64,000 nucleotides of DNA from Friedmanniella luteola (lineage in GTDB: Bacteria > Actinomycetota > Actinomycetes > Propionibacteriales > Propionibacteriaceae), in assembly GCF_900105065.1 (NCBI RefSeq), contig NZ_LT629749.1, forward strand, positions 2,232,001 to 2,296,000, written 5' to 3'. Each line of letters begins with the position of its first letter. The stretch's first letter is position 1. Of this stretch, positions 5,789 to 32,142 are shown in pieces. The notes below the pieces were generated by a model that did no database searches, was not told where the DNA came from, and saw only the letters and a list, made by a program, of their open reading frames with translations. Made by a program: the position numbers and the translations under genes.

Positions 5789-8700
5789 TCAGGAGGTGGT
5801 GAGCCGGTGCGCCGCGGCCTCGGCGCTCGCGTAGCGGCCGTCGACGACATCCCGTGCCGCGGTCAGGAACCCCTCGGCGTCCTGACCGGGCGCGAACTCG
5901 CCCAGGTAGTAGACCCGGGTCTCACGACGGACCGCGGCCTTCGGGTCGCTGACCAGGAGCTCGTCCAGGACCGTCTCGAGGTTGGACAGGTCCTCGCGCA
6001 GCACGTAGGCGGCCCGCGCCGCGGGCGCCTCGACCAGCAGCTGCTCGGGCGTCCGGCCCACGGACACCATGGCGAACGGCTTCTCCGAGCGCAGGTAGTC
6101 CGAGACGACGGCGGACACGTCCGCGACCATCGCGTCGGAGAGGTTGAAGCAGTCCTCGACGCTCAGCCCGGACTCCGCCGCCGGCCCCCACAGGTGCTGG
6201 CGCCCCGTCCGCTCCCGGTCGGCGTCCAGCAGGGCGCCGATGGAGGCGATCACCGCCCGGCACTCCGGGTAGCGGTAGTTGAAGGGGTGCGCGCGGAAGA
6301 CCACCCGGCAGCCCCGGGCCAGCAGCGCGGCGACGACCTGCTCGCCCACCGGCAGCGAGAACACCCGGCTGTCGGCGTACGGGCCCTGCCAGGTCGGCGC
6401 GTACAGCACGGTCGGCGGCTGCTGCTCCGCCACCGGTCCGCGGGCCGCCTCGATCTGCTCGACCTGCGGACGCCCCACCACCAGGAACTTCTCCTCCGGG
6501 ATGTGCACCCCGTGCCGCGCGTAGCGGTCGATGCCCGCCTGGCCGGCGGCGAAGATCAGGTCGTAGATGGCGTGCACCGGGTTGTAGCAGGCCGGCTTCT
6601 CGGAGTCGCCGTGGTTGAGCCAGACGTGGGTCAGCTCGCGCCGCTCGATGAAGTGGGTGTTCCGGACCGCGTTGTTGACGTAGAACGCCGACGTCATCGA
6701 CGGCACGATGACGTCCTCCAGGCTCCGCAGCGTGGGCCGGTGGACCACCGGGACCACCACGCCCTGCTCCTCGCAGAGCTGGGCGACCTGGCGGAGCATC
6801 GGCAGCGTGCGGGTGATGACGACGAAGCGCCGGCCGGTCCGCACGAAGTACGGCAGCCACATCCCCAGCTGGTAGGCGGCGCCGACCGTCGAGGCGAAGT
6901 AGACGGCGAACTCCGGCGCCCAGGCCTCCAGGGCCCCGCGCAGCCGCTCCTCGCCGCGGCTGACCTCCACCGCGCGACGGAGCGCCTGCACCAGCACGAG
7001 GGCGACGGCCCCCAGCAGCACGGCCGTGACCACCAGCAGGACCACCTCGAGCGACGGGCGCGCACCCGGCCACGCCCGCGCCACCGGTCCGAGCAGCACC
7101 AGGGCCACCAGCACGGTGCCGACCCAGGCCCGCGCCGGCCACTCCCGGGGCAGCAGCTCGCGGACCGGTCGGACCGCCGCGGGCAGGTGCACCGCCTGGA
7201 GCCCGAAGCCGCCCCAGCACGCCTCGACGGTCCGCTCGGCCACCAGCCCGACAGCCAGCACGAGCAGCGCCGCGACCACCGGCCAGCCGACGCCGTCCGC
7301 GCCCGCCACGACGACCAGCGTCGCCAGCAGCAGGGCGCGGACCACGGGAGCACGGTCGGAGAGGCGGAGCCGGGCGTCCGTCCGGCCGCGTCGGGCGGAC
7401 ACCACCTGCAGCACGACGGCCAGCAGGGCCAGCCCCGCCGGCAGCCACGCCGGGCCGTCCAGCACCGCGGTCAGCAGCGCGACGAGCGCCACGCCGACGG
7501 CCACCAGGCCCAGCCCGACGCCGAGCAGCAGCCCGCTGTAGCGGCGCAGGCCGGCCGCCGCCCGGGACTGCTCGACCTCGTCCTCGGCTCCGGGGCGGGC
7601 GTCCTCGGCGCCCGGCGCCTCCTCGGCCTCGACGTCGCCGCGGTCCTCGGTCTCCTGGTCCGCACGGGACTGCCGCGCGACGTGGCGGACGGCGTCGACG
7701 AAGGCGTCGGCGTAGTGCTCGGCCGGGAAGTCGCCCAGGTAGTCCGCGCGGAGCGCCAGCCGCTGCTCGCGGAGCGGGTCGGGGCCCAGCATCGCGGTGA
7801 GCTGGCCGTCGAGGTCGGCGAGGTCGCCCCGCACCACGTAGGAGGCGGCGGCGACCGGGAACTCGGCCAGGAACTCCGGCGGCTCGGCGGGCACGGCCAC
7901 CATGGCGAAGGGCTTGCCCGAGAAGAGGTAGTCCACGACCACGCTGGACACGTCCGACACCATCGCGTCGGAGACGTTGATGCAGTCGAGGATGCCCCGC
8001 TCGGACTCCGCCGCCGCCCCCCACAGGTGGGCCCGGCCGGTGCGCCGGGCGTCCGCGGCGAGCAGGTCGTGGATGCGCCCGATCACCGCGGCGTCGTCGG
8101 CGAAGTCGTAGCTGAACGGGTGCGGTCGGAAGACGACGGTCGCCCCGCGGTCCAGCAACGCCTGCACGATGCGCTCCCCGCCGGGCAGCGAGTAGAGCAT
8201 CGTCTCCTCGACGTGCCCCCGCCAGGTGGGGGCGTAGAGCACCACCGGCTCGGTGACGGCGCTGATCGGCCGGTCGACCTGGTGGACGTCCTCCACCTGG
8301 GGCCGGCCGACGACGCGGAACTTCTCGGCCGGGATCCGGACGCCGTGCGCGGCGTACCGGCGGGCTGCGGCCGGTCCCGCGGCGAAGACCGCGTCGTACA
8401 TGGCGTGCGTCGGGTTGTAGGACGGTGGCTTGTCCGAGTCGCCGTGGCCCAGGTAGATGTGCGTCAGGTGCTGGAAGCGCACCATGGCGCCGTTGCCGGA
8501 GGACGCGTTGACGTAGAACGCCGCCTTCAGCGACGGCCCGACCAGCGCCTCGAGGTCGGCGGTGCTGCGGGCCTCCACCACCGGCACGTCGGTCTGCTCG
8601 GCCAGCGCCGCCGCCGGCACGGCGTTCCGGGTGACGACGAGGAAGCGGAGCCCGGCGCGCTGCAGGTAGGGCAGCCACATGAGGACCTGGTAGGAGGCGT

Positions 8701-9373
8701 CGTCCGGGCGGGAGGTGTAGACGACGAACTCCGGTGCGTAGTCGGCGACGGCCTGCGGGACCAGGGTGCGCCGCTGCCGGGCGGCCAGCACCTTCGCGCG
8801 GCCGGTGACCGCGAGCACCACGAAGGGCACCGCCGCCGCCACCGTGCAGCCGAGCCACCACCAGGGGCTGAGCCCCAGCAGCGCGACGACGACGCCCGCC
8901 GCGACGGCGACCGACGCGGTGACCACGGCCAGCGGGCCGACCGGGGGTGAGGTCGGGGCGGCGGGGAGGCCGGGCAGCCGGACGGCGAGCGGGACCGTGA
9001 ACCGGGCGGCCCGCGCGAGCACCGGCTCCACCGTGAGGCAGCCGAGCAGGACCCCGGCACCCGCGACGGCGGCGACGACCTCCGCGGGACCGTCGGCTCG
9101 CAGGGCGAGCAGGGCGCCGAGCACGGCGGGCGGCACCGCGCGCACGGCCATCAGCTGCCCGAGCGGGCTCCAGCCCGCGGCCCGGCCGCGCGCCAGCAGC
9201 GCGATGCGCAGGGTGACGGCCAGCACGGCCCCCAGCACGGCCAGCGCGCCGGCGGCCTCGCCCGCGCGGTCCAGCAGCAGGCCGCCCACGCCGGAGACGG
9301 CGGCCAGCACGTCGAGCAGCAGCTCGCGCGCCCGTCGTCGGCCGGGGGAGATCTCGTCGGGGTCCACCGTCAC
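5789..9373 (-). CDS. Tandem-domain CDP-glycerol/ribitol phosphotransferase, paralogue B
   Basis: 1194 residues with two TagB/TagF-like (Glyphos_transf) domains. Several hydrophobic segments (about 1-200) precede domain A, which has YLGHGDSDKP near 308, VVLYAPTWRGH, VVFRPHPFSY near 417 and DAMVSDVSSVVVDYLFSGKP. An acidic linker (about 565-600) and more membrane segments lead to domain B, with WLNHGDSEKP near 919, a variant VVFRAHPFNY near 1029 and DAMVADVSAVVSDYL. In TagF the two His motifs (HGD and RPHP) are catalytic. The family moves glycerol- or ribitol-phosphate from a CDP donor onto a growing polymer at the membrane. The GTG start overlaps the stop of paralogue A by 4 nt. The specific donor is inferred from the CDP-ribitol synthase at 19056. 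Confidence 0.88.
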   Translation of the reverse strand: MTVDPDEISPGRRRARELLLDVLAAVSGVGGLLLDRAGEAAGALAVLGAVLAVTLRIALLARGRAAGWSPLGQLMAVRAVPPAVLGALLALRADGPAEVVAAVAGAGVLLGCLTVEPVLARAARFTVPLAVRLPGLPAAPTSPPVGPLAVVTASVAVAAGVVVALLGLSPWWWLGCTVAAAVPFVVLAVTGRAKVLAARQRRTLVPQAVADYAPEFVVYTSRPDDASYQVLMWLPYLQRAGLRFLVVTRNAVPAAALAEQTDVPVVEARSTADLEALVGPSLKAAFYVNASSGNGAMVRFQHLTHIYLGHGDSDKPPSYNPTHAMYDAVFAAGPAAARRYAAHGVRIPAEKFRVVGRPQVEDVHQVDRPISAVTEPVVLYAPTWRGHVEETMLYSLPGGERIVQALLDRGATVVFRPHPFSYDFADDAAVIGRIHDLLAADARRTGRAHLWGAAAESERGILDCINVSDAMVSDVSSVVVDYLFSGKPFAMVAVPAEPPEFLAEFPVAAASYVVRGDLADLDGQLTAMLGPDPLREQRLALRADYLGDFPAEHYADAFVDAVRHVARQSRADQETEDRGDVEAEEAPGAEDARPGAEDEVEQSRAAAGLRRYSGLLLGVGLGLVAVGVALVALLTAVLDGPAWLPAGLALLAVVLQVVSARRGRTDARLRLSDRAPVVRALLLATLVVVAGADGVGWPVVAALLVLAVGLVAERTVEACWGGFGLQAVHLPAAVRPVRELLPREWPARAWVGTVLVALVLLGPVARAWPGARPSLEVVLLVVTAVLLGAVALVLVQALRRAVEVSRGEERLRGALEAWAPEFAVYFASTVGAAYQLGMWLPYFVRTGRRFVVITRTLPMLRQVAQLCEEQGVVVPVVHRPTLRSLEDVIVPSMTSAFYVNNAVRNTHFIERRELTHVWLNHGDSEKPACYNPVHAIYDLIFAAGQAGIDRYARHGVHIPEEKFLVVGRPQVEQIEAARGPVAEQQPPTVLYAPTWQGPYADSRVFSLPVGEQVVAALLARGCRVVFRAHPFNYRYPECRAVIASIGALLDADRERTGRQHLWGPAAESGLSVEDCFNLSDAMVADVSAVVSDYLRSEKPFAMVSVGRTPEQLLVEAPAARAAYVLREDLSNLETVLDELLVSDPKAAVRRETRVYYLGEFAPGQDAEGFLTAARDVVDGRYASAEAAAHRLTTS

Positions 9374-12300
9374 TCCCCCGTGCTCAGGGTGGCGGCCTGC
9401 CGCCGCTCGGACGGTGAGCGCGCGTCGATGACGCCGCGGGCGGCGTCGAGGAAGCCGTCGGCGTAGCGGTCCGCCGGGAAGTCGCCCAGGTAGTAGGTCC
9501 GGGTCTCGGCCCGCACGGCGGCCAGCGGGTCGGCGCCGAGCAGGTCGGCCACCACCGCGTCGAGGTTCGACAGGTCCTCGAGCAGCACGTAGGCGGCGCG
9601 GGCCGCGGGCGCCACCTCCACCAGCTGCTCCGGGGTGCGGCCGACGGCCACGATGGCCAGCGGCTTGCCGGAGTGCAGGTAGTCGGTGACCATGGCCGAC
9701 ACGTCGCTGATCATGGCGTCGGAGGCGTTGAAGCAGTCCTCCACCGACATGGCCCGCTCGGCGGCCGAGCCGTAGACGTGCTCGACCCCGGTCTCGCGGC
9801 GGTGCCGCGCCAGCAGCCGGTTCACCTTCTTGATCATGGTCACGCAGGCCGGGAAGCGGTAGTTGGTCGGGTGCGGCCGGAAGACCACCCGCACCCCCGC
9901 ATCCAGCAGGTGCTGGACCACCGGGACCGCGACGGGCAGCGAGAAGAGCCGGGTGTCGGCGTAGGGGCCCTGCCAGGTGGGCGCGTAGAGCACCGTCGGC
10001 CGTTCGACCGTGCTCACGGGGCCGGCGGCGGGCTGGACCCCCTCCACCTGCGGCCGGCCGACGACGCGGAACTTCTCCTCGGGGATGTGCACCCCGTGCC
10101 GGGCGTAGCGGTCGATGCCCGCCTGGCCGGCGGTGAAGATCAGGTCGTAGATGGCGTGCACCGGGTTGTAGCAGGCCGGCTTCTCGGAGTCGCCGTGGTT
10201 GAGCCAGACGTGGGTCAGCTCGCGCCGCTCGATGAAGTGGGTGTTCCGGGCGGCGTTGTTGACGTAGAAGGCGGTGGTCATCGACGGCACGATCACCTCC
10301 TGCAGCCCGGCCAGCGTCGGCCGCAGGATGACGGGCGCGTCGACGCCGTTGCGGCTGAGCGCCCGGCTGAGCTCGGTGAGGGTGTCCGCCGACCGGGTGA
10401 CGACGACGAACGGCCGGCCGATCCGCGCGAAGTAGGGCGCCCACATGCCCACCTGGTAGCCGGCGCCGACCGTGCCCGCGAAGTAGACGGCGAACTCGGG
10501 CGCCAGGGCGGTCAGCTCGTCCCGCAGCCGGTGCTCGGCCCCGACCACCCGGGCCGCCCGTCCCAGGGCCCGCACCGCCACCACCACGAAGAGGGTGAAG
10601 ACGAGGACGGCGACGGCCACCAGCAGACCCGCGGGCACCGGGACCAGCACGGCGAGCAGCGCCAGCAGCACGGCGACCGATCCCGCGAGCGGGAGCAGCC
10701 CGCGCGGCACGCCCTCCGCCACCTGGGTGCGCATCGCCGGGAAGTTGCGGACCTGCAGCCCCAACCGGCCCCAGGCCCGCTGCACCCCGGACTCGCCCAC
10801 CACGGCGACGGCGAGCAGCACGAGCACGACGAGCGCCGCCGGCGCCGGCAGCCGTCCCGGCGGTGCGGCGACCGCGGCGGCGCAGAGCAGGACGACGCGG
10901 ACGCCCCGGGCCTCCCCCATCAGCCGCGGCCAGCGCTTGCGGCGGTGGACGGAGGCCGAGACCGAGCCGTAGACCGTGGTCAGCGCGGCCACGCCGAGCA
11001 GCACCGGCAGCAACCGGGGCGCGCCGACGAGCGCGGTCGCGAGCGCCAGCAGGGCCAGCACGGCCGCCGCCTGGCTCCACCGGCGTGGCTGGACCAGCCG
11101 GCGGCGGAGCTTGCGCAGCCGACGCCGGGTCCGCGAGCGCGGCCGGCGCGCCGGCGTCCGGACCGGACCGGCGGCGGGCGACCCGCCGCCGGGCACGGGC
11201 AGCATCTCGTCGTCGGCCGGGCTGTCGTCGGCCCCTGCGCCGGAGGCGCCGGCCAGAGCGTCGTCGCCGGTGTCGTCCACGTCCGAGCGGAGCCGCCCGC
11301 CGCTGGCCACCGCGTCGACGGCCGCCACGAAGGCGGAGGCGTAGCCCTCGGCGGGGAACGGGCCGAGGTAGTCCACCCGCTGCGCGCGGCGGACCTCCGC
11401 GAGCGGGTCCTCGCCGAGCATCGTGGTGAGGGCGGGGCCGAGATCGGCGAGGTCGCCGGGGACCACGTACGCCGCCCGGGCCACCGGGTAGGCGGCGCGG
11501 AAGGCCTGCGGTTCCGTCGGCACCGCGACCATGGCGTAGGGCTTGCCGGAGAAGAGGTAGTCGGAGACGACGCTGGAGACGTCGGAGACGAGGGCGTCGG
11601 AGAGGTTGAAGCAGGCGACGACGCTGCGCTCGGTCTCCGCCTCGGCGCCCCACAGGTGGGGTCGGCCGGTGCGTCCGCGGTCCTCGGCGAGCAGCCGGTG
11701 GATCCGCTCGATCACGGCGGCGTCGGCGGGGAAGCCGTGGCTGAACGGGTGCGGACGGAAGACGACGGTCGCGCCGGCCGCGAGCAGACCCCGGACGACG
11801 CCCTCGCCGACGGGCAGCGAGGACAGCGAGGTCTCCTCGACGTGGCCGCGCCAGGTGGGCGCGTACAGCACGACCGGGGACGCCCCGGCCGGCCGGGACC
11901 CCGCGGTCTCGATGGTCTCGACCTGCGGCCGGCCGACGACGACGAACTTCTCGTCGGGGATCGCGATGCCGTGCTCGGCGTACCGCCGGACGGCCGCGGG
12001 TCCGGCGCAGAAGATCCGGTCGTACATGGCGTGGGTGGGGTTGTACGACGTCGGCTTGTCGGAGTCGCCGTGACCCAGGAACACGTGGGTCAGCTGCTGG
12101 TAGCGGACGAAGACGCCGTTGCCGGAGGAGGCGTTCGGGTAGAAGGCGGCCCGCAGCGACGGCACCACCAGCACGTCGAGGTCGGCGGGGCCGCGCGCCT
12201 CCACGACCGGCACGTCGACGAGCTCGGCGAGCGCCCGTGCGCTGGCGCTGCTCCGGGCGATGACGATGCAGCGCCGGCCGGTGCGCTGCAGGTACGGGAG

Positions 12301-13002
12301 CCACATGGTCACCTGGTGCACGCCGTCCGCGCCCGGCCAGGAGGTGTAGAGGGCGATCTCGGGCTGCAGGTCGGCGATGGCCCGCGGCAGCTCCCGCTCG
12401 TGGCGCCGGAGGGCGGCCGCGCGGCGGGCGTTGTCCCGGGCCACCCGCACGCGGCCGGCCGCGGCCAGCACGGCGGCGAGCGCCCACCACCAGGCGGGCA
12501 GGCCGAGGGCCCCCACGGCCAGGCCCGCCGCCACCGCGCCGAGATCGGCGAGGAGCACCTGACGGCTGAGGTCGGCGGGCACCGGGGTGGTCGGGACGCC
12601 GGGCAGGTGCGCGACCACCGGCACCTTGAGCTGGGAGCCGGGGCGCAGGTACGGCTCGTAGAGGACGGCCCCCACCAGGACGACACCGCCCAGCGCGGCG
12701 CCGACGGCGTGCTGGGGCTGCAGCAGCGCGAGCGTGCTGGCCAGCCCGGCCCCGATCAGCGCGCGCTGCCCCAGCTGGCTGGTGAGCAGGTCGAGGCGGG
12801 GGCTCTGGCGCCGCATGGTCACGGCGCGGCCGGTGGCGGCCAGCAGGGCCAGGGCCAGCAGCGCGAGGCTCCACCGGGAGCCGTCGAGCGCGAGGGAGAT
12901 CCCGGTGGCGGCCAGCGCGGTGGTGCCGAGGTCGGCGCCCAGCTTGCGCAGCCGGCTCGCGGTGCCGAGGTCGCGTGGTCCGCGGCTCAACCTGTCTCCC
13001 AT
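9370..13002 (-). CDS. Tandem-domain CDP-glycerol/ribitol phosphotransferase, paralogue A
   Basis: 1210 residues, collinear with paralogue B. After an N-terminal membrane region come domain A (FLGHGDSDKP near 308, VVFRPHPFSH near 417, DALVSDVSSVVSDYLFSGKP), a charged Arg-rich linker (about 600-640), further hydrophobic segments and domain B (WLNHGDSEKP near 934, VVFRPHPTNYRF near 1042, DAMISDVSAMVTDYL). All four catalytic-type His motifs are intact here. The ATG at 13002 is preferred; the frame stays open further upstream, but that part is Pro/Arg-rich and lacks family features. A and B are products of a whole-gene duplication following an internal one. A acts with the two GT2 genes upstream on the same strand. 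Confidence 0.88.
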   Translation of the reverse strand: MGDRLSRGPRDLGTASRLRKLGADLGTTALAATGISLALDGSRWSLALLALALLAATGRAVTMRRQSPRLDLLTSQLGQRALIGAGLASTLALLQPQHAVGAALGGVVLVGAVLYEPYLRPGSQLKVPVVAHLPGVPTTPVPADLSRQVLLADLGAVAAGLAVGALGLPAWWWALAAVLAAAGRVRVARDNARRAAALRRHERELPRAIADLQPEIALYTSWPGADGVHQVTMWLPYLQRTGRRCIVIARSSASARALAELVDVPVVEARGPADLDVLVVPSLRAAFYPNASSGNGVFVRYQQLTHVFLGHGDSDKPTSYNPTHAMYDRIFCAGPAAVRRYAEHGIAIPDEKFVVVGRPQVETIETAGSRPAGASPVVLYAPTWRGHVEETSLSSLPVGEGVVRGLLAAGATVVFRPHPFSHGFPADAAVIERIHRLLAEDRGRTGRPHLWGAEAETERSVVACFNLSDALVSDVSSVVSDYLFSGKPYAMVAVPTEPQAFRAAYPVARAAYVVPGDLADLGPALTTMLGEDPLAEVRRAQRVDYLGPFPAEGYASAFVAAVDAVASGGRLRSDVDDTGDDALAGASGAGADDSPADDEMLPVPGGGSPAAGPVRTPARRPRSRTRRRLRKLRRRLVQPRRWSQAAAVLALLALATALVGAPRLLPVLLGVAALTTVYGSVSASVHRRKRWPRLMGEARGVRVVLLCAAAVAAPPGRLPAPAALVVLVLLAVAVVGESGVQRAWGRLGLQVRNFPAMRTQVAEGVPRGLLPLAGSVAVLLALLAVLVPVPAGLLVAVAVLVFTLFVVVAVRALGRAARVVGAEHRLRDELTALAPEFAVYFAGTVGAGYQVGMWAPYFARIGRPFVVVTRSADTLTELSRALSRNGVDAPVILRPTLAGLQEVIVPSMTTAFYVNNAARNTHFIERRELTHVWLNHGDSEKPACYNPVHAIYDLIFTAGQAGIDRYARHGVHIPEEKFRVVGRPQVEGVQPAAGPVSTVERPTVLYAPTWQGPYADTRLFSLPVAVPVVQHLLDAGVRVVFRPHPTNYRFPACVTMIKKVNRLLARHRRETGVEHVYGSAAERAMSVEDCFNASDAMISDVSAMVTDYLHSGKPLAIVAVGRTPEQLVEVAPAARAAYVLLEDLSNLDAVVADLLGADPLAAVRAETRTYYLGDFPADRYADGFLDAARGVIDARSPSERRQAATLSTGE

Positions 13003-13139: not shown

Positions 13140-14891
13140 CTAGTCGGCGCGCCGTCGGGACGAGCGGGCGAGGACGGCCCGGGTCCGGCGCAGCACGGCT
13201 CCCGCCAGCCGCCGACCGCGCCCGCGGGGCGTCGGGGCGGCCGTCGGGTCCGCCGTCGACGGAGCGGGCGGCGGAGCGGGCGGCGGGTCGGGCGGCGGGT
13301 CGGGCTCGGTCACCGGCGGGCGCCCTCGGTCCGCGTCCACCTGCGCCGACGCCCGGCGCGCCTCCTCCTCCCGGCGCGCCGCGGCCGCCCGCTTCCACTC
13401 GGGCGGCTCGTGGCGCCGGCCGACCGCGACGGTGAGGCCGCGCCGCCCCTGCGTGTAGTAGAGGGCGACCGGCTGCCCGCCGAGCGGAGCGCCGCGGTCG
13501 AGCGCGGCGTCGTCACCCCTCCACTGCGGGGGGAGCTCCAGCCGGACCCGGCGACGCAGGCCCAGGCCCGTCAGCTCGACGTAGAAGTCCCAGCGCCCGG
13601 GTCCGAGCGGCTGGCCGGCCGCGAGCCGCGTGAGGTCGACCTCGCTCTCGAACTCCCAGCGGAGGCCGTCGGCGGTGCTGACCACCGGGACGTTCCAGCG
13701 CTCGTTCGACGTCCGCTCGAGGGCGTACAGCACGAGCTTCGCCGCCCCCAGCGCGCGGGCGAGCTGCTCCGGCGGGAGGTCCCCCACCAGGCCCGCCACG
13801 GTGCCGGGGCTCGCGTCGAGGTCGTCCCCGCGGACCACCCCGAGGCGCGCCCGGCCCGCCAGGACCAGGGTGCCGGCGGACCAGCGGGCGGTCAGCAGCT
13901 CGCACCGCCCGGTCCACCGGGTCTCCTCCCGGGCGAGGTCGAGCAGCCGCTGGAGGTCGCCGGCGATCAGCGCCTCGCCGGCCGCGCGGGTGGCGAGCGG
14001 GAGCAGCGCCACGACGCCGGGCCCGAAGTAGGCCGCGGCGGTGCGGTGCGCCGCCGAGAAGAGGTTGCTCAGCTCCGGCTCCGTGCGCTTCAGCAGGCTC
14101 CCCCCGGAGTGCCGCTTGACCATCTCCGTCTGCAGCCAGCGCCGGAAGATGCGGTCGCGGAGCGGCCCGGGCTCGGTGTGCGCGACCACGACGTCGAGGG
14201 CCTCGCGCAGGTTGGCGAAGTAGGCGTCCCAGTCCACCGCGTGGTACGCGGCGTTCGCGCCGTCGTCACGCCGGATGTGGTAGTAGCACGTGTAGTCCGC
14301 GTACACGGCGATGCTGCTCGCCAGCAGGTAGGCCGTGACCACGAACAGGTGGTCCTCCAACCTCCGCCGACCCTCGGGGAACCGCAGGCCGTGCTGGTCG
14401 AGGAAGGCCTTGCGGAAGAGCTTGTGCGGGGTCAGGCTGTCGATGATCGTCGAGTCCGCGAGGGTGACGTGCGGGCGGGTCCGGGCGAACAGGTTGTGCG
14501 GGACGGCGCGGCCGATGCCGGCCATCTTCCCGATCAGCACGTCGGCGTCGTGCTCGACGGCGTAGGCGTGCATGCGGACGAGCGCTTCGGCCCCCAGCCA
14601 GTCGTCGTGGTCGCAGAAGAAGACGAAATCGCCGCGGGCGGCGTCGATGCCGACGTTGCGCGGCTTCCCGGGCCAGCCGGAGTTCTCCTGGTGGATCACC
14701 CGCAGGTGCGGGTGGTCCTGCGCCACCCGGTCGAGCAGCGCCGGCGTCGCGTCGGTCGACCCGTCGTCGACGAAGATCGCCTCGAACTCGTCGTCCGGCA
14801 TCGTCTGCGCCAGCAGCCCGTCGATGCAGGCCTGCACGTAGGGGCCCGGGTTGTAGACCGGGATGATGACGCTCACCTTCACCGCGACCAC
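13140..14891 (-). CDS. GT2 glycosyltransferase with C-terminal accessory domain
   Basis: 583 residues. The N-terminal GT-A domain (about 5-230) has VSVIIPVYNPG, the nucleotide-binding VDDGS, a DxD-type metal site in FFCDHDDW, and RRLEDHLF, where the catalytic base is expected. A helical segment and a beta-sandwich-like region (LGPGRWDFYVEL) follow. The tail is Pro-rich then strongly basic, suiting membrane contact. The build recalls staphylococcal TarS/TarP, which glycosylate ribitol-phosphate wall teichoic acid; that role is inference from architecture and neighbours. The GTG start lies 1 nt after the stop of the next GT2 gene. Confidence 0.85.
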   Translation of the reverse strand: MVAVKVSVIIPVYNPGPYVQACIDGLLAQTMPDDEFEAIFVDDGSTDATPALLDRVAQDHPHLRVIHQENSGWPGKPRNVGIDAARGDFVFFCDHDDWLGAEALVRMHAYAVEHDADVLIGKMAGIGRAVPHNLFARTRPHVTLADSTIIDSLTPHKLFRKAFLDQHGLRFPEGRRRLEDHLFVVTAYLLASSIAVYADYTCYYHIRRDDGANAAYHAVDWDAYFANLREALDVVVAHTEPGPLRDRIFRRWLQTEMVKRHSGGSLLKRTEPELSNLFSAAHRTAAAYFGPGVVALLPLATRAAGEALIAGDLQRLLDLAREETRWTGRCELLTARWSAGTLVLAGRARLGVVRGDDLDASPGTVAGLVGDLPPEQLARALGAAKLVLYALERTSNERWNVPVVSTADGLRWEFESEVDLTRLAAGQPLGPGRWDFYVELTGLGLRRRVRLELPPQWRGDDAALDRGAPLGGQPVALYYTQGRRGLTVAVGRRHEPPEWKRAAAARREEEARRASAQVDADRGRPPVTEPDPPPDPPPAPPPAPSTADPTAAPTPRGRGRRLAGAVLRRTRAVLARSSRRRAD

Positions 14892-14892
14892 T

Positions 14893-16521
14893 CTACGGTC
14901 GGACCGCTCCGGGGCCGGGATCTCCCCCGGCCACGCTGTGCGCCTCGACGGAGCACCTCGCGGGTCGCAGGTCGGCGCCGGTGGCGCGCACCCTGATGCT
15001 CAGGTTCCCGAGCTGCGTGGTGTACAGCTCGGGGCCGGTCGCCGGCCGGGCGGGGACCCCCTGCGCGGGGACCGCCACCCGGCGCGTGACCCGGCGGCCC
15101 AGCGCGTCGAGCTCCGCGCTCACGTCGACGACGACCGGGCCGGTCGCCCCCGGGAGCGCGCGCAGCTCCTCGCCGTCGAGCCGGGCCACGCCGGAGAACA
15201 CCAGGCGGTCGCCGACGCCGTCCACGGGGACGAGGCGCGGGGCGCCGGCCGCGCAGACCGAGTGGTCCTCCGGTGCGTCCCTGCGCCGCACCAGGAGGTG
15301 GAGCCGGGCGGCCAGGAGGTCGGCCGTGACGTCGATCGCCGATCGCGGCAGGGCGCCCAGGTCGAGGGGCGGGACCCAGACCACGGAGTCCCCCGCCCGA
15401 CGGAAGAGGACCGGTGAGCCGTCGCCGTAGCGGAGCTCCATCGAGAAGCGCACCGCCGCGGCACCCTCCTCGTACCACACCTGCTCGGCGAGGACCGTCG
15501 CGGTCAGCCCGGCCTCCGCCTCGGCCAGCGCGAGCAGCAGGTCCAGCCGTTGCTCGCGCACCAGGTGCGCGCGGACCCGCATGGAGAACTCGAGGTGGTC
15601 GACGGTCTCCGGGGTGAACCGGGCCACCGCCACGGCGTGCACCTCGCGGAACACCTGCTCCCGCCGCGCCGACGAGTAGCCCAGCATCGCCCGGCCGCTC
15701 AGGTGCATCAGCACCTTCTTGCCCAGCCAGTAGGCCTTGATCCGGTCCCGGCGCTCGCCGGGCTCGGTGTGCCGGTCGACCACGTCCAGCACCGCGTTGA
15801 CGGCCGTGGCGAAGTACGCGTGCGGGTCGAAACGCTCCGACGACGCGCTGACGACGCCCGCGCGCCGGGTCCAGTGGTAGTACGCGTAGTCGGCGTAGAT
15901 GGAGATGCGCTCGGCGGCGAAGAAGGCCTGGACGTTGAACTGGTGGTCCTCCAGCCGCACCTTGCCGGGCGGGAACCGGATCCTGTGGCTCTCCAGCATG
16001 GCCCGGCGGTAGATCTTGTGCGGGGTCAGCAGCTGGACCACGGGGTCCTCGTCCAGCCGGGCGTCCGGGATCGTGCGGCGGAAGACGAAACGGCCGATGG
16101 AGCGCCCCACGCCCACCTCCCGGGCGATGACGACATCGCTCCGGTGCTCCACCGCGAAGGCGTGCACCAGCTCGAGCCCCCGGGGGCCGAGGTAGTCGTC
16201 GTGGTCGACGAAGGCCACGTACTCCCCCCGTGCGGCCCCCAGACCCACGTTGCGGGGCGTGCCGGGCCACCCCGAGTTCGGGATGTGGTGGACGACGAAG
16301 TTGCCGTGGGTCCCCGCCAGGGCGTCCAACCGCTCAGCGGTGCCGTCGGTGGACCCGTCGTCGACGAACACGACCTCGAAGTCCGCGGCGGGCATGCTCT
16401 GGCCCTCGAGGGAGCGCACCAGCTCGTCGAGCGCCTCGCCGGTGTTGAAGACCGGGACGACGACGCTGATCTTCGGCCCACTCGGTCGCGGGGCCCGTCG
16501 GAGCCGGCTCAGCAGTCGCAC
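14893..16521 (-). CDS. GT2 glycosyltransferase, paralogue of the downstream enzyme
   Basis: 542 residues. The GT-A domain (about 15-245) keeps ISVVVPVFNTG, VDDGSTDGT, the metal motif VDHDDY and VRLEDHQF. The C-terminal half is all-beta accessory sequence. NSGWPGTPRNVGLGAARG is shared almost exactly with the 583-residue neighbour, so these are recent paralogues. A GGAGGAGG ribosome-binding site precedes the GTG start. It likely adds a sugar to the phosphate polymer built by the tandem phosphotransferases; the sugar donor cannot be told. Confidence 0.85.
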   Translation of the reverse strand: MRLLSRLRRAPRPSGPKISVVVPVFNTGEALDELVRSLEGQSMPAADFEVVFVDDGSTDGTAERLDALAGTHGNFVVHHIPNSGWPGTPRNVGLGAARGEYVAFVDHDDYLGPRGLELVHAFAVEHRSDVVIAREVGVGRSIGRFVFRRTIPDARLDEDPVVQLLTPHKIYRRAMLESHRIRFPPGKVRLEDHQFNVQAFFAAERISIYADYAYYHWTRRAGVVSASSERFDPHAYFATAVNAVLDVVDRHTEPGERRDRIKAYWLGKKVLMHLSGRAMLGYSSARREQVFREVHAVAVARFTPETVDHLEFSMRVRAHLVREQRLDLLLALAEAEAGLTATVLAEQVWYEEGAAAVRFSMELRYGDGSPVLFRRAGDSVVWVPPLDLGALPRSAIDVTADLLAARLHLLVRRRDAPEDHSVCAAGAPRLVPVDGVGDRLVFSGVARLDGEELRALPGATGPVVVDVSAELDALGRRVTRRVAVPAQGVPARPATGPELYTTQLGNLSIRVRATGADLRPARCSVEAHSVAGGDPGPGAVRP

Positions 16522-16585: not shown

Positions 16586-17341
16586 TCAGGCGACCGCGAC
16601 GAAACCGGTGCCGAACTGCTCGCGGACGAGCGGTCGCAGGGACGCGGCGAGCGACCCGGCGGAGACGGTGGCCGGCTGCTGGGCGAGCAGCTCCAGCAGA
16701 CCGGAGCCGAGGAAGCGCGCGGGCGCGACGACGCTGCGCCGGTCCAGGATCTCCCCCGGGACGGGCTGGGGGTCGGGACGGCGGAACTCGGCGAGGATCT
16801 CGTCGAAGCGGTCGACGAGCACGTCGTTCTCCGGGTCGAGCCCGACGACCGCCAGCAGACCCGTCGGCCGGGTGTCGAGGGGGATGACGACCAGATCGGG
16901 CCGGTAGAGCTCGAGGACCTGGAGCACGCCGAACACGTCCCCCGTCCACTGGTGCGTGTGGCGCTCGCGGGCCGCCTCCGCGATGCTGCGCGGGAGCACG
17001 TCGTCGAAGACGATCATCCCGCGGGCCGAGGAGTGGCGCTCGGCGAAGATGAAGTCCCGCAGGGCGAACTCGAACAGGTGGAGCCCGTCGATGAAGCTCA
17101 GCTCGAACGGCTCGCCACCGGTGGCCGCGAGCGGGTCGGGCCGGCTGAAGTACTCGTCGCTCGTCGTGCGGAACAGGGCGACGTCACCGTCCAGCTCGGC
17201 GTGGATGGCGTAGGCGGGGTCGATGCCCACCGCCCGGCAGCGCGCCAGGGCGAGGCTGTTCCCGTTCCGGACGCCGATCTCGAGGTAGGCCGACGGGGCC
17301 AGCCGCGCGTGCACGGTCCGCAGGAAGTCGAGGTAGAGCAT
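16586..17341 (-). CDS. Class I SAM-dependent methyltransferase-like protein
   Basis: 251 residues. AYLEIGVRNGNSLALA matches the glycine-rich SAM motif I of the Methyltransf_24-type families, and LSFIDGLHLFEFALRDF plus MIVFDDVLP match the acidic post-motifs. These families modify saccharides, among other substrates. Position at the head of the minus-strand operon and back-to-back with the plus-strand arm suggests a role in polymer capping or decoration, but nothing in the sequence fixes the substrate. Confidence 0.75.
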   Translation of the reverse strand: MLYLDFLRTVHARLAPSAYLEIGVRNGNSLALARCRAVGIDPAYAIHAELDGDVALFRTTSDEYFSRPDPLAATGGEPFELSFIDGLHLFEFALRDFIFAERHSSARGMIVFDDVLPRSIAEAARERHTHQWTGDVFGVLQVLELYRPDLVVIPLDTRPTGLLAVVGLDPENDVLVDRFDEILAEFRRPDPQPVPGEILDRRSVVAPARFLGSGLLELLAQQPATVSAGSLAASLRPLVREQFGTGFVAVA

Positions 17342-19055: not shown

Positions 19056-20465
19056 GTGACACCTCTACGCAACGTCGCGGTCGTGCTGGCGGGCGGGACG
19101 GGGACCCGGGTCGGGTTGAGCATCCCGAAGCAGCTGATCAAGATCGCCGGCAAGCCGATCATCGAGCACACCATCGCGGCCATGCAGCAGTCCCCGCTCG
19201 TCGACGAGATCCTCGTCCTGATGGCCCCGGGCTACCTCGACGAGGTGCGGGCCATCGTCCGCGGCGGTGCCTACGACAAGGTCACCCAGATCCTCGAAGG
19301 TGCCGGCACCCGCAACGACACGACGGCCACGGCGCTCGCCGCGCTCGGGGACCAGGAGTGCAACGTGCTGCTGCACGACGCCGTCCGCCCGCTGGTCTCG
19401 CAGACGATCATCGCGGCCAACGTCGCGGCGCTCCAGCACCACCGGGCCGTCGACACCGCCATCCCCTCGGCCGACACCGTCATCCAGGTCCGGGAGGCGT
19501 CGGAGACGATCGCCGACGTGCTGCCCCGGCACCTGCTGCGCCGGGGCCAGACCCCGCAGTCCTTCCGGCTGTCGACCATCCGCGAGGCCTACGCGCTCGC
19601 CGCCCAGGACCCCGACTTCACCGCCACCGACGACTGCACCGTCGTGCTGCGCTACCTGCCCGAGGTCGACATCGCCGTCGTGCCCGGCCACGAGCGGAAC
19701 ATGAAGGTCACGGAGCCGATCGACGTCTACATCGCCGACAAGCTCTTCCAGCTGACGTCGGCCGACGTCCCGGAGGCGCTGACCGACGAGCAGTACCGGG
19801 CCGGCCTGGAGGGCCGGACGGTCGTGGTCTTCGGCGGCTCGTACGGCATCGGCGCCGACATCGCCGCCCTCGCCCGCCGCTGGGGTGCCGAGGTGCGGAC
19901 GTTCTCCCGGTCCAGCACCGGCACCCACGTCGAGCGCCGGGCCGAGGTGGCCGCCGTGGCCGCGCAGGTGCTGGCGGAGACCGGCCGGATCGACTTCGTG
20001 GTCAACACCGCCGGGGTGCTCCCCCGCGGCGAGCTGACCGAGACCAGCGAGGAGACGATCTACGCCTCCACCGACGTCAACTACCTGGCCCCGATCTTCA
20101 TCGCCCAGGAGTTCCAGCCGCACCTGGCCGCCAGCCACGGGTCGCTGCTGCTGTTCACGTCGTCCTCCTACACCCGCGGGCGCTCCGGCTACTCGCTGTA
20201 CTCCTCCGCCAAGGCCGCCGTCGTCAACCTCACCCAGGCCCTGGCCGACGAGTGGGCCGGCAGCGGCATCCGGGTCAACTGCGTCAACCCCGAGCGGACG
20301 TCGACGCCGATGCGCACCAAGGCCTTCGGCGAGGAGCCGGCGGGGACGCTGCTGACCTCCGAGGCCGTGGCCCGCCAGTCCCTGGACGTGCTGCTCTCCG
20401 GGCAGACGGGGCACGTGATCGACATCCGCCGTGAGGACGGGCCGGCCGCCATCGCCAACGGCTGA
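19056..20465 (+). CDS. Bifunctional cytidylyltransferase/SDR, Bcs1/Acs1-like (CDP-ribitol synthesis)
   Basis: 469 residues, close to Haemophilus Acs1/Bcs1 (about 474). Residues 1-230 are an IspD/TarI-type cytidylyltransferase, with VVLAGGTGTRVG, IPKQLIKIAGKPI, LLHDAVRPLVS and TDDCTVV. Residues about 250-465 are a short-chain reductase, with FGGSYGIGADIA, NTAGVLPRGELTE and the catalytic YSLYSSAK (YxxxK). In the known enzymes the SDR half reduces ribulose-5-phosphate to ribitol-5-phosphate and the other half makes CDP-ribitol. This is the best clue that the locus makes a ribitol-phosphate polymer. The GTG lies 7 nt after a -10 box. Confidence 0.88.
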   Translation: MTPLRNVAVVLAGGTGTRVGLSIPKQLIKIAGKPIIEHTIAAMQQSPLVDEILVLMAPGYLDEVRAIVRGGAYDKVTQILEGAGTRNDTTATALAALGDQECNVLLHDAVRPLVSQTIIAANVAALQHHRAVDTAIPSADTVIQVREASETIADVLPRHLLRRGQTPQSFRLSTIREAYALAAQDPDFTATDDCTVVLRYLPEVDIAVVPGHERNMKVTEPIDVYIADKLFQLTSADVPEALTDEQYRAGLEGRTVVVFGGSYGIGADIAALARRWGAEVRTFSRSSTGTHVERRAEVAAVAAQVLAETGRIDFVVNTAGVLPRGELTETSEETIYASTDVNYLAPIFIAQEFQPHLAASHGSLLLFTSSSYTRGRSGYSLYSSAKAAVVNLTQALADEWAGSGIRVNCVNPERTSTPMRTKAFGEEPAGTLLTSEAVARQSLDVLLSGQTGHVIDIRREDGPAAIANG

Positions 20466-20537
20466 CCGGGCCGTCCGCTGGATCCGGGTGTGGCGGGGGC
20501 GTGGCGTGGCGGGTCGCCGGCCCGGCCCGGCCCCCTC

Positions 20538-20543
20538 TACAGT
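20538..20543 (+). promoter_or_regulatory. Candidate -10 for the pyruvyltransferase/GT8 gene
   Basis: TACAGT lies 38 nt before the ATG at 20582. ACGAGGAGC at about 20567-20575 serves as the ribosome-binding site. No clear -35. Confidence 0.35.
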
Positions 20544-20581
20544 GCGAGCACACCCGCCGCTGCACCACGAGGAGCACCCGC

Positions 20582-23212
20582 ATGCCCAGCCTGGCGCGAC
20601 GTCTCGCCCGCCGCCACCTCCCGCACCGCGTCCGCCGGGCGGGCCTCGTGCTCGCCGGGCACGAGCCGGCCGGACCCACCCGGGCCGAGCTGCGGGCCGC
20701 CGCGCAGCAGGCCACCGCCGAGAAGGTGGCCACGGCGGTGGCCTCGGCCGAGCGCCGCGCCGCCAGGGCGCGGAAGGCGGCCGGGCCGGCGCCGCAGCCG
20801 CTGGCCGACACCGTGCGCCGCGGCGGCAGCCTCGACGAGGCGGTGACCGCCGAGGTCGTCCACCTGCTGGCCGCGGGCGACCCCGACGCGGCCGTCGCCC
20901 TCGGCACCGGGCTGCTCCGGACGCCGGCCACGGCGGCGAGCGGCGACCTCGCGGTCGGGCTGACGGCGGCGTCCCGGGGCGACCACGCCCTGGCCTGGTC
21001 CCGGCTGAGCCGCCTGGACCCGCAGGTCTGGAGCCGCCACGCCGCCCGGGCCTGGTGCGTCAGCGGGCTCGACCAGGACCCCGCGGCCACGCTGCGCCAG
21101 ATCACCGCCCTGGTGGCCGACCGCCCGGACTGGGTGCCGACCCGCACCTGGCTGGAGCTGCTGGGTCCCGTCTTCGGCCGGGGCGAGCAGGAGCTGGCCC
21201 GCTCGCTGCACGCGGTGCTCGACCAGCGGGTGGGTGCCGGCGACGGCGTCGAGCGGGACCTCGTGGTGCAGCGGGACTGGCTGCGCCGCTGGATCGCGGC
21301 GGAGCCGGGTGGGCACCTGGCACCCGCCCCGCCCGAGGGCTCGGTCGCGTTCGCGATCATGGACTACGACCACCCGGGCCGCAGCCGCGCGTCGGCCAAC
21401 ATCGGCGACCACGTGCAGAGCCTCGCCTCGCTCGGCCACCTCGTCCGGCACCAGGACCTCGAGTTCGAGGGTGCGCAGGACCTCGTCGACCTCGTCGGCC
21501 AGCTGCGGGGGCGGGTCCGGCCCGAGCTGGCCCGCACCGGCGTCCGGGGGCGGGTGCAGCTGCTGCAGGTCGACCGCGACGCGTCGGAGTACGCCACCGT
21601 GCCCGCCGGCACCTGGACCCTGGCCTTCGGCTGGTTCATGCACGCGATCTTCGAGAGCCGCTTCGGCTTCCCGCTGCACCCGGGGCTGCGGCCGCTGTTC
21701 GTGTCCTTCCACGCCAGCAAGCGGGACCTGCTGGTGCCGGAGGCCATCGAGCACCTCCGCCGCTACGCCCCGATCGGCTGCCGGGACTGGACGACGGTGG
21801 ACCTCCTGCTGTCCGCCGGGGTGCCCGCCTTCTTCTCGGGGTGCATGACCACCACCGTCCGCACCGTCTTCCCGGCCCAGGTGGAGCGGCCCGCCGCGGA
21901 CGCCCCGGTGGGCTACGTCGACATGCCCGCCGCCGCGGTGCCGGCCGGAGCGGTCACCTACGCCCACAGCAGCGACAAGATCCGCTTCCGCAGCTTCGCG
22001 CGCAACGTCGGCGACGCCGTGTCGCTGCTGGAGACCTACCGGCGCCGCCACCCCGCGATGGTGACCAGCCGGCTGCACTGCTACCTGCCGGTGCGCGCAC
22101 TGGACGTGCCCGTCGACTTCCAGCCGAAGAACCGCTCCGACCCCCGCTTCGCCGGCCTCATCGACATCACCGACGACGAGTTCGCCGCCATCCAGGAGCG
22201 CATCGACACCCGCCTGGAGCTGGTCCTCGGCGCGGCGCTGGGCGGCGCCGCCGAGGAGGACGTCTATGCGCTCTGGCGGGAGGTCAACGCCGCCGACGTC
22301 GCCCTCGCCGAGCAGCGCCGCGCGGCCCGGCACCCGCTGCCGGCCCCCCGCTCCGACCTCGCCGCCGAGCTGGCGCCCGTTCTCGACGGGCTGCCCGACG
22401 CCCCCGTCGACGCCCCCGTCGACGCCGTCGCGGTGGTGGTCCACGTCGGCCGGGACCGCGCCGCGGCGGTGTGCGTGCTGCTGGCCTCGGTGGCCGCGCA
22501 CACCGCGCGGCCGGTCCGGTTCCTCCTGCTGACCCAGCACCCGGACGAGCTGGACGCCGGGGCGCTCGTCGCGGCCCTGCCCGGGCACACCGTCGACGTC
22601 GTCGACACCCGCACCGTCGGGGGCGACCTGCGGGCGGCGGGGCGGAAGCTGCCCGCGGCCGACGTGGACGCGCTGCTGCTGCCCCACCTGCTGCCCGGAT
22701 CGGCCCGGGCGGTCGTGCTGCCGGTCGACGCGGTCGTCGAGGCCGACGTCGCCGAGCTGGCCGAGCTGGACCTCGACGGCCGTCTCCTGGCCGCGGCCCA
22801 GCCCGCCGGTACCGGCTCGGCCAGCGGCTTCGCCGTCCTCAACACGGCGGCCAACCGGCTGGGCGACCAGACCGTCCCGGCCGCCGAGCTGCGGCGCCGG
22901 GCCTACGGCCGGCACGCCTTCGACTTCGAGGCCTTCGACGTGTCCGTGCTGGTCGTCGACCTCGACGCCTGGCGCGCCCACGAGGTGCTGGGCGAGCAGC
23001 TCAGCTGGGTCGAGGAGTTCGGCCTCGGGTTCCGCGAGCTGCTGCACCTGGCCGTCGGCCCCGACCGGGCGGTGCTGCCGCCGCGGTGGCACCGGGTCCC
23101 CGGCCGCGACGTCGTCGACCACGATGTCGCCCTGCTGCACTGGGCCGGCCGGACCAAACCCTGGTCGCCCGACCTCGCGCCCGAGCAGGACCGGTGGTGG
23201 GCCCACCGGTGA
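20582..23212 (+). CDS. Polysaccharide pyruvyltransferase-like and GT8-like fusion protein
   Basis: 876 residues. A basic, helical N terminus (1-230) precedes a domain at about 255-530 with pyruvyltransferase-family marks: SANIGDHVQSLA, FVSFHASKRDLL, IGCRDWTTVDLL, PAFFSGCMTTT and MVTSRLHCYLPV. A GT8-like domain (about 615-870) follows, with VVVHVGRDRAAAVCVLLAS, FDVSVLVVDLDAWRAH and the closing HWAGRTKPW. In GT8 enzymes the metal-binding DxD precedes the V-x-x-D stretch; here the site reads LPVDAVVEADV, so the first Asp is Pro. The GT8 half may thus be inactive or metal-independent. Attachment of pyruvyl ketals or sugars to the polymer is a plausible role. Confidence 0.78.
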   Translation: MPSLARRLARRHLPHRVRRAGLVLAGHEPAGPTRAELRAAAQQATAEKVATAVASAERRAARARKAAGPAPQPLADTVRRGGSLDEAVTAEVVHLLAAGDPDAAVALGTGLLRTPATAASGDLAVGLTAASRGDHALAWSRLSRLDPQVWSRHAARAWCVSGLDQDPAATLRQITALVADRPDWVPTRTWLELLGPVFGRGEQELARSLHAVLDQRVGAGDGVERDLVVQRDWLRRWIAAEPGGHLAPAPPEGSVAFAIMDYDHPGRSRASANIGDHVQSLASLGHLVRHQDLEFEGAQDLVDLVGQLRGRVRPELARTGVRGRVQLLQVDRDASEYATVPAGTWTLAFGWFMHAIFESRFGFPLHPGLRPLFVSFHASKRDLLVPEAIEHLRRYAPIGCRDWTTVDLLLSAGVPAFFSGCMTTTVRTVFPAQVERPAADAPVGYVDMPAAAVPAGAVTYAHSSDKIRFRSFARNVGDAVSLLETYRRRHPAMVTSRLHCYLPVRALDVPVDFQPKNRSDPRFAGLIDITDDEFAAIQERIDTRLELVLGAALGGAAEEDVYALWREVNAADVALAEQRRAARHPLPAPRSDLAAELAPVLDGLPDAPVDAPVDAVAVVVHVGRDRAAAVCVLLASVAAHTARPVRFLLLTQHPDELDAGALVAALPGHTVDVVDTRTVGGDLRAAGRKLPAADVDALLLPHLLPGSARAVVLPVDAVVEADVAELAELDLDGRLLAAAQPAGTGSASGFAVLNTAANRLGDQTVPAAELRRRAYGRHAFDFEAFDVSVLVVDLDAWRAHEVLGEQLSWVEEFGLGFRELLHLAVGPDRAVLPPRWHRVPGRDVVDHDVALLHWAGRTKPWSPDLAPEQDRWWAHR

Positions 23213-30886: not shown

Positions 30887-32113
30887 TCATCCCGCATCGC
30901 CCCCTCCCCGGAGGACCGTGAGGGCGGGCTGCTCCGGACCAACTACGGACCACCAGGCCGAGAAGGCCGTGCCGGCGTCCAGCATCGCCTGCGTGTCGGG
31001 GTGCAGATAGCGGGCCGTGACTGCCGGATCTTGGTGGCCAGCCACGCGTTGCAAGATGTGCAGGTTCACCCCGGCGTCCGCCATCCAGGTCAGCGCGGTG
31101 TGCCGCAGACCATGACGCACCAAGCCAGGCTGACCCAGGTTGGCGACCAGCTGATCCGAGTTGGTCGCATCGCGCAGCGTGGCCGTGGTGATCACTCCCC
31201 CACGAGGTCCCACCAGTAGCCGGTCGTCGTCGCGCCGGCCCGTGGTCAGCCGAACCAGGAGCTCTCGCAGCGGTTCGATGATCGGGACTGTTCGGCGGCG
31301 TCGGCCCTTCGTCTCCTTGGTCACCAGCCCGCCCCGACCGGGATAGGTCTGCCGCGCCACCTGCAGCAGACCTCGGTCGAGGTCGACGTCGCCCACCCGC
31401 AGGCCCGCCACCTCACTGATCCGCAGGGCCGTCGTCGCCAACAAGGTCACCGCGTCACCCCAGGCCTGGTGGTTGCCGGCTTGGATCACCGCGGCGACGA
31501 TCCGCTGCAACGTCGCCACGTCGGGCAGCGCCAGATCGCGCGGCGAACCCGGCTCCGTCGACACGGTGCGCCCGACAGTCCGGCGGCGAGCCCGATCTTT
31601 GGCCGGGTTGCGGGGCAGCAAGCCGTCACGCACGGCCTCGTCGAGCACTAGGACCAGTGCCGACACGGTGTTCTTCACCGTCGAGCGGCCGTACTCGAGC
31701 TCCCACCGGTCGATGGCCCGGTCAACCAGCCCCGCCGTGATCAAGGTGAGCGGAAGATGGCCGAGGGTCGGGACAACGCGCCGGCGAAGACCTGCCGCGT
31801 AGGGGTCGTACGTCGACGTCGGGTCGATCCCACGGGTCCAGCGGTCACCCAGAGCTGCCACGTACTCTCCGAGCGTCTGCGTCGGGTCGACACCGGTCCG
31901 AGCCAGGCTCTGCATCTGCTCGATCCACGTCACCGCCGCCTCCCGACTGGGGTGGGCACGCTTCAGGCTCTCCCGCCGACCCGTGGCCGGGTCCCGCCAA
32001 CGGACGCGGGCCCACCAGGCAGTTCCTCGGGGCGCCTGGACCTCCTCGACGTCGACGGTCAGCTTGACCCCCAGCGGTGGCTTCCTCACTGTCGACCCAC
32101 CCTTGGCACTCAT
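30887..32113 (-). CDS. int: Tyrosine recombinase (integrase)
   Basis: 408 residues. An N-terminal arm-binding region (about 1-75, WWARVRWRDPATGRRESLK) precedes a SAM-like core-binding domain (about 80-180) and the catalytic domain. In the latter are Arg in ALRISEVAGL, HGLRHTALTW (His-x-x-Arg), GHQDP and the nucleophile Tyr in TARYLHP. An AGGAGGGA ribosome-binding site precedes the ATG. It lies 29 nt after rep, giving a rep-int operon. Its stop is 41 nt from tRNA-Pro, as expected for an integrase using that tRNA as attB. No excisionase gene lies between rep and int. Confidence 0.95.
   Translation of the reverse strand: MSAKGGSTVRKPPLGVKLTVDVEEVQAPRGTAWWARVRWRDPATGRRESLKRAHPSREAAVTWIEQMQSLARTGVDPTQTLGEYVAALGDRWTRGIDPTSTYDPYAAGLRRRVVPTLGHLPLTLITAGLVDRAIDRWELEYGRSTVKNTVSALVLVLDEAVRDGLLPRNPAKDRARRRTVGRTVSTEPGSPRDLALPDVATLQRIVAAVIQAGNHQAWGDAVTLLATTALRISEVAGLRVGDVDLDRGLLQVARQTYPGRGGLVTKETKGRRRRTVPIIEPLRELLVRLTTGRRDDDRLLVGPRGGVITTATLRDATNSDQLVANLGQPGLVRHGLRHTALTWMADAGVNLHILQRVAGHQDPAVTARYLHPDTQAMLDAGTAFSAWWSVVGPEQPALTVLRGGGDAG
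30935..30952. repeat. Possible integrase arm-type site, left copy
   Basis: CGGACCAACTACGGACCA, itself a direct repeat of CGGACCA, recurs exactly at 37116-37133. The two copies lie 83 nt inside attL and 85 nt inside attR, a symmetry expected of arm-binding sites. The left copy is inside the integrase coding end. Confidence 0.5.
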
Positions 32114-32142
32114 CCGCTAACTCCCTCCTGTCGCTTCCGTAG

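Follow-up and report, generated by a model that had tools for sequence, protein, structure and literature searches.

P1 and P2 are adjoining genes of Friedmanniella luteola in the window, a stretch of 64,000 nucleotides (contig NZ_LT629749.1, positions 2,232,001 to 2,296,000; GC content 74%) from a genome of 4.7 Mb on one contig. Each encodes a protein in which two TagF-like units, A and B, are fused in one membrane protein, both apparently working. This fusion is new, while the kind of enzyme is known, with one unit per protein. We propose that P1 and P2 are bicatalytic, membrane-anchored alditol-phosphate transferases for a wall polymer of the ribitol-phosphate type and that A and B carry out different steps; we give this reading a probability of roughly one half. 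It builds on the established architecture, the predicted fold, the conserved catalytic residues, purifying selection, the ancient distinctness of A and B and the linkage to a gene fusing an IspD-type cytidylyltransferase to a short-chain dehydrogenase/reductase (SDR), called IspD-SDR below. The two genes and their parts, all on the minus strand, are as follows.

9370..13002, minus strand: P1, 1210 aa, two-domain TagF-like protein, ATG start at 13002, stop codon ending at 9370 (open reading frame and Pfam)
12391..13002, minus strand: membrane block ahead of P1 domain A (hydropathy; block family model)
11278..12390, minus strand: P1 domain A, with GHGDSDKP, YAPTW, RPHP and SDVSS
10501..11277, minus strand: P1 linker and second membrane block
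9373..10500, minus strand: P1 domain B, with NHGDSEKP, YAPTW, RPHP and SDVSA
5789..9373, minus strand: P2, 1194 aa, paralogue of P1, GTG start at 9373, end at 5789 (open reading frame and Pfam)
8777..9373, minus strand: P2 first membrane block, six predicted helices
7658..8776, minus strand: P2 domain A, with H310, K315, H418, D474, S476, S477 and D481
6902..7657, minus strand: P2 linker and second membrane block, six predicted helices
5792..6901, minus strand: P2 domain B, with H921, K926, H1029, D1085, S1087 and D1092

The junction of the two genes (..GAGTGACG..) contains a 4-bp GTGA start/stop overlap, with the P2 start inside the P1 stop codon. Thus, P1 and P2 are probably translated together. 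PF04464 matches two stretches in each protein, with whole-protein E values of 1.7e-20 for P2 and 5e-18 for P1, and no further Pfam family is found in P1 or P2 up to E 10. Scored singly in the genome search, the four domains reach 30.5-41.9 bits each, over the PF04464 cut-off of 22.1. A sequence-only reading of this DNA had described four TagF-like domains in two tandem two-domain proteins, an architecture unlike that of the one-domain TagB, TagF and TarL, and this description holds: there are four matches, two per protein, and A and B are of one family with 48-49% identity. The A domains of P1 and P2 (A1 and A2) share 67% identity, and the whole proteins share 55% over 1105 aligned columns. 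GHGDSDKP is found at residue 310 in P1 and 309 in P2 and RPHP at 416 in both, which is within two residues of the common positions that had been read from the sequence. The corresponding motifs of domain B are NHGDSEKP at residue 935 (P1) and 920 (P2) and R[PA]HP at 1042 (P1) and 1027 (P2).

The catalytic set of TagF and CroT is retained in A and B, including the base His, the Lys at +5, the His of RxHP, the first Ser and the aspartates; the roles of these residues are taken from work on TagF and CroT (PMC10299916, PMC11666461). A His pair equivalent to H444 and H584 of TagF is present in both domains. In the alignment of homologues, HG, K, RxH, D and S are kept in 25/25 A domains and in 24/24 genuine B domains. 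Furthermore, 15 positions are fixed differently between A and B, mostly beside the HGDS, APTW, RPHP and SDVS motifs. The ratio of nonsynonymous to synonymous substitution rates (Ka/Ks) against the orthologues of a sister species (G002) is 0.20 for A1, 0.21 for B1, 0.14 for A2 and 0.09 for B2, so that purifying selection is observed on all four domains. Together with the fixed differences by the active-site motifs, this indicates that the A and B sites are probably both active and not interchangeable. The WHGTP of TagF, TarL and CgoT is absent: A and B domains read L[GN]HGDS[DE]K, with the Lys at H+5 (CroT K101) retained. The TarL equivalog NF041713 gives 11 bits for P2 against a cut-off of 1000 and no match for P1. 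P1 and P2 belong to the PF04464 superfamily, but from the missing WHGTP motif and these TarL scores they are not orthologues of TagF or TarL.

Searches of PDB sequences with the single proteins or with a four-domain profile gave nothing significant, and matches were obtained by structure comparison alone. An AlphaFold2 model of P2 was built on 23 full-length homologues, with a predicted local distance difference test score (pLDDT) of 81.4 and a predicted template-modelling score (pTM) of 0.78. Each half of the model consists of six membrane helices, the last of which runs into a GT-B domain, and a TagF/TarL-like GT-B fold is predicted for both halves. The A half aligns with TagF at Z 18.4 over 326 residues and with CDP-ribitol-bound TarL (CDP, cytidine diphosphate) at Z 18.3 over 295 residues, and the B half aligns with TagF at Z 18.8 over 324 residues. 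The identity in these structural alignments is 12-15%. The best Foldseek matches of the model are Cps3D, Bcs3, TarL and TagF. To be noted, generic GT-B enzymes reach Z 17 against the model; the fold alone does not single out TagF, while the Pfam matches and motifs do.

Hydropathy and AlphaFold2 both predict membrane segments ahead of each domain. A predicted six-helix block precedes every domain; the sequence-only reading had already assigned each domain its own membrane segments. The A-block and the B-block match each other in hhalign with E 5.6e-15. By this profile comparison the two blocks are homologous, and the repeat therefore exceeds the catalytic domain alone, the repeated unit being about 600 aa of membrane block plus catalytic domain. 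The distribution of positive charge suggests that the catalytic domains face the cytoplasm. The block matches no Pfam family. Its five best fold matches are CDP-alcohol phosphatidyltransferases at Z about 10, with Foldseek E of about 3 or worse. An identity as such an enzyme was considered and rejected: the signature DxxDGxxA...GxxxD is found in 0/143 blocks, and hhalign against the genome's own members of this family gives E 0.21, that is, no profile similarity. A Z of about 10 is common for helical bundles, and the likeness is treated as a common helical arrangement.

This genome is not the only one with the fusion, and over 20 other loci carry it. The two-domain protein is present in 15 of the 20 genomes of the genus and in 23 loci of the genome collection (L025-L047), which cover Microlunatus, Friedmanniella, Mumia, Arthrobacter, Brevibacterium, Sanguibacter and one Micrococcales strain. 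Adjacent strong domains of the fusion kind are found in 4 genomes of a class-wide sample of 346, and the plasmid collection holds a single distant match only. In the domain trees all A domains, with GHGDSDKP, form one clade (support 99*, 96*), and a second clade (99*, 100*) unites the genuine B domains, with NHGDSEKP. L041_5445, which carried a B label in the first tree, is a weak single-domain relative that stands apart, and it was excluded from the second. P1-A pairs with P2-A and P1-B with P2-B, which supports a whole-gene duplication giving P1 and P2 after the split of A and B, as the sequence-only reading had it. The internal duplication that it had placed before this event is not supported as stated: A and B are each old clades, and in the free tree B joins single-domain paralogues (96*), not A. 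Constraining A and B as one clade costs 18 log-likelihood units and is disfavoured, not rejected (approximately unbiased test, p=0.06). A fusion of two existing paralogues would account for the data at least as well as an internal duplication. Loci of the Propionicimonas-, Jonesia- and Cellulomonadaceae-like kind have no fusion and instead hold a pair of single-domain transferases, encoded separately beside IspD-SDR. These would be the unfused counterpart of A plus B, and they support two distinct transferases in one pathway. A single-domain transferase with HHGDSDKAPS, from another family of the class, is encoded directly downstream of IspD-SDR (L120 9243-11039, L121 9247-10968). It is about 50% identical to P1 over the matched part and represents a simpler system.

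The IspD-SDR gene at 19056-20465 is the strongest clue to the donor. The best PDB matches of its IspD half are ribitol-5-phosphate cytidylyltransferases (E 1e-29). A classical SDR domain (PF00106) is present, and the NCBIfam model for ribitol-5-phosphate cytidylyltransferase gives 145.7 bits against a cut-off of 166. An IspD domain fused to an SDR domain is the layout of the Haemophilus influenzae CDP-ribitol synthase. In five loci of Brevibacterium and three of Mumia, IspD-SDR is the gene immediately upstream of the fusion, and five other loci have it no more than 8 kb away. Every genome of the class sample that has a strong domain match (8/8) carries IspD-SDR, compared with 60/346 overall; the chance probability of 8/8 is about 5e-7 (hypergeometric, by hand) if the genomes are taken as independent, which they are not. 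Across the class, a transferase of the HG[DE]S type is encoded no more than about 8 kb from IspD-SDR in 14 of 20 loci, usually adjoining it. The most likely donor is CDP-ribitol, as the product of the nearby IspD-SDR. A strict co-occurrence of IspD-SDR and fusion was also considered and rejected, with IspD-SDR kept in 4 of the 5 genus members that have no fusion.

In the proposed mechanism, each half would act as one unit, in which the six-helix membrane block anchors a cytoplasmic TagF/TarL-like GT-B domain. CDP-ribitol from IspD-SDR would serve as the substrate of two sites on the cytoplasmic side, which the two membrane blocks would keep in position. The HGDS histidine (H310 and H921 in P2) would serve as the base, and the RxHP histidine together with the HGxxxK lysine would hold the pyrophosphate, both as proposed for TagF and CroT. 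Ribitol phosphate would be added to the end of a growing, lipid-linked wall polymer, with release of cytidine monophosphate. Because different fixed residues surround otherwise intact active sites, A and B would catalyze different consecutive steps. These could be a first-unit (primase-like) and a chain-extending transfer, or transfers to two acceptor positions, in either order. The covalent link between A and B would keep the acceptor in place between the sites, and two GT2 glycosyltransferases with TarS linker domains, encoded upstream of P1, would then glycosylate the chain. No member of the TagA/WecG family (PF03808) is found in the genome, despite several PF04464 enzymes and four LytR-CpsA-Psr (LCP) ligases. 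Thus, a standard TagO/TagA/TagB start is unlikely, and the starter unit must differ from the one of Bacillus and Staphylococcus.

Several points weigh against this reading. The PF04464 matches of all four domains span only about profile positions 179-291. HGDS replaces the HGTP of the characterised enzymes, and the preceding residue is G (in A) or N (in B), not W. Three genomes of the genus (G001, G005 and G010) hold IspD-SDR at the matching genomic place without the fusion gene, and the link is thus not an obligatory one. Proteins with a TagF-like fold are also able to transfer hexose phosphate (PMC5974469). What we infer from the evidence as a whole is the donor, the order of steps, the division of labour and the polymer or product.

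Among the alternatives, the one that survives best is that A and B catalyze the same chain-extending reaction, so that the fusion and the later gene duplication would only raise the activity or processivity of one alditol-phosphate polymerase. We regard it as a serious though improbable competitor. The identical catalytic set in the two domains and their 48-49% identity are in line with it, and genus members with a single fusion usually have an adjoining single-domain transferase that would be able to prime. However, the 15 fixed differences between A and B lie mostly in active-site loops and are kept across several families, and the unfused lineages hold two divergent transferases rather than near-copies.

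Somewhat less probable is that the activated alditol is mannitol or another alditol, not ribitol, with a product such as a mannitol teichoic acid. Brevibacterium, which bears the operon of IspD-SDR and fusion, is known for mannitol teichoic acids, with the genes said to be unassigned (PMC10918830). On the other hand, ribitol-5-phosphate cytidylyltransferases are the best matches of the cytidylyltransferase half, and the described CDP-glucitol/mannitol pairs use a PF01370 reductase, whereas the reductase here is a classical SDR (PF00106).

We consider it unlikely that A and B differ in donor, with an alditol phosphate transferred at one site and either a hexose phosphate or another alditol phosphate at the other, to give an alternating copolymer. 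The fixed differences by the active sites, among them the G or N ahead of HG, would fit such a division, and TagF-like domains do transfer glycerol or hexose phosphate, the hexose-phosphate transferases showing QHG and not WHG. However, only one gene for an activated alditol, IspD-SDR, is seen in the cluster, no sequence feature examined assigns a hexose donor, and the G or N before HG also varies among single-domain relatives. Two non-identical active sites are compatible with an alternating polymer, as the sequence-only reading had imagined; that these sites, with the twelve membrane helices of one protein, in fact build an alternating or two-linkage alditol-phosphate polymer, one site per unit type, is similarly doubtful. 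Most improbable is that one domain is catalytically dead and serves as a scaffold or acceptor-binding module: pseudo-enzyme halves are common in duplicated enzymes and B has Ala for the second Ser of SDVSS, but both His, the Lys, the first Ser and the aspartates are present in all genuine B domains, and the constraint on B is similar to that on A (Ka/Ks 0.21 and 0.09 against 0.20 and 0.14).

P1 and P2 lie in a neighbourhood with the following genes.

13140..14876, minus strand: glycosyltransferase family 2 (GT2) enzyme with TarS linker domain, upstream of P1 on the same strand (Pfam)
14893..16521, minus strand: second GT2 glycosyltransferase with TarS linker domain (Pfam)
16586..17341, minus strand: Methyltransf_24-like methyltransferase (Pfam), kept in the sister locus L102
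17375-18985, plus strand: 536-aa protein with no confident family, divergent to P1 and P2
19056..20465, plus strand: fused IspD-type cytidylyltransferase and SDR reductase, candidate CDP-ribitol synthase (Pfam)
20501..23212, plus strand: 903-aa protein with a glycosyltransferase family 8 (GT8) domain at the C-terminus (Pfam)

P1, P2 and the main neighbours are found in identical order in the sister species. The N-terminus of the 536-aa protein resembles, by eye, a degenerate GT2 domain and a Pro/Lys-rich tail comes after it; G002 has a copy with 54% identity at the matching place. The middle part of the 903-aa protein has weak, below-cut-off similarity to polysaccharide pyruvyl transferase. 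This pyruvyltransferase-like part and the GT8 part both resemble enzymes of wall-polymer modification. The cluster (2129-28358, compared with L099, L100 and L101) has a 5'-3' exonuclease gene on one side and the gene at 26418-28358 on the other. Three genus members have only IspD-SDR plus at most one transporter-like gene between relatives of these boundary genes (the exonuclease and the transporter-like gene were identified in L101), which suggests that the whole cassette was gained or lost at a fixed genomic place. Further along, at 30887-33687 on the minus strand, a phage-type integrase is followed by a replication-initiator-like protein, both recognized by eye, and the third-position GC of the integrase is lower. 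This stretch is possibly an integrated element. About 36 kb before the window, an apparent operon (G000:C1:2192906-2196435; locus L010 8907-12436) contains a mannitol dehydrogenase, a haloacid dehalogenase (HAD) phosphatase and a canonical WHGTP-type TagF-like transferase, and may feed a second wall polymer.

The wall-teichoic-acid enzymes of Actinomycetota are largely unassigned. Here, a distinct HGDS-type branch of the TagF superfamily is defined, which in many actinobacteria is linked through gene order to an enzyme resembling CDP-ribitol synthase. With the conserved two-site fusion, single-site mutants can be used to test directly how successive alditol-phosphate transfers are divided between the sites. 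Should A and B differ in donor or linkage, the fusion would be a compact tool for making defined teichoic-acid polymers.

A comparison of P1 and P2 with known systems shows both common and different features. TagF (glycerol-phosphate polymerase) and TarL (ribitol-phosphate polymerase) share with them PF04464, the GT-B domain, the two catalytic His and the SS/D motif region, and in the proposed reading TarL also has the same donor, CDP-ribitol. In contrast, TagF and TarL have one catalytic domain per chain, while P1 and P2 have two, each with a six-helix membrane block, and HGDS in place of HGTP. TagF and TarL are peripheral membrane proteins. In sets of TarB, TarF or TarK with TarL, two or more PF04464 enzymes likewise act in succession on one chain. 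These are separate polypeptides, unlike P1 and P2, and TagA is not detectable in our host genome. A search of an open-licence library gave no paper on a single chain with two TagF-like domains, which is weak evidence of absence. In the Gram-negative TagF-like capsule polymerases, a glycosyltransferase domain of the GT-A or GT-B type is joined to the TagF-like one (PMC5974469). P1 and P2 do not have this layout, as both of their catalytic parts are PF04464. Among such enzymes, Bcs3 of H. influenzae b and Cps3D and Cps7D of Actinobacillus pleuropneumoniae are likewise chains of about 1100-1200 aa with several catalytic domains, one of them TagF-like. In these chains the TagF-like domain is paired either with a glycosyltransferase or with a phosphatase and a ribose-5-phosphate transferase, whereas in P1 and P2 the partner is a second TagF-like domain, and the repeated six-helix membrane blocks are absent from the published descriptions of Bcs3, Cps3D and Cps7D consulted for this comparison. 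The Bcs3 pathway likewise has a CDP-ribitol synthase, Bcs1. The bifunctional CDP-ribitol synthases Acs1 and Bcs1 have the same fusion of IspD-type cytidylyltransferase and SDR as the protein encoded at 19056-20465, which is actinobacterial and is likened to them by its layout.

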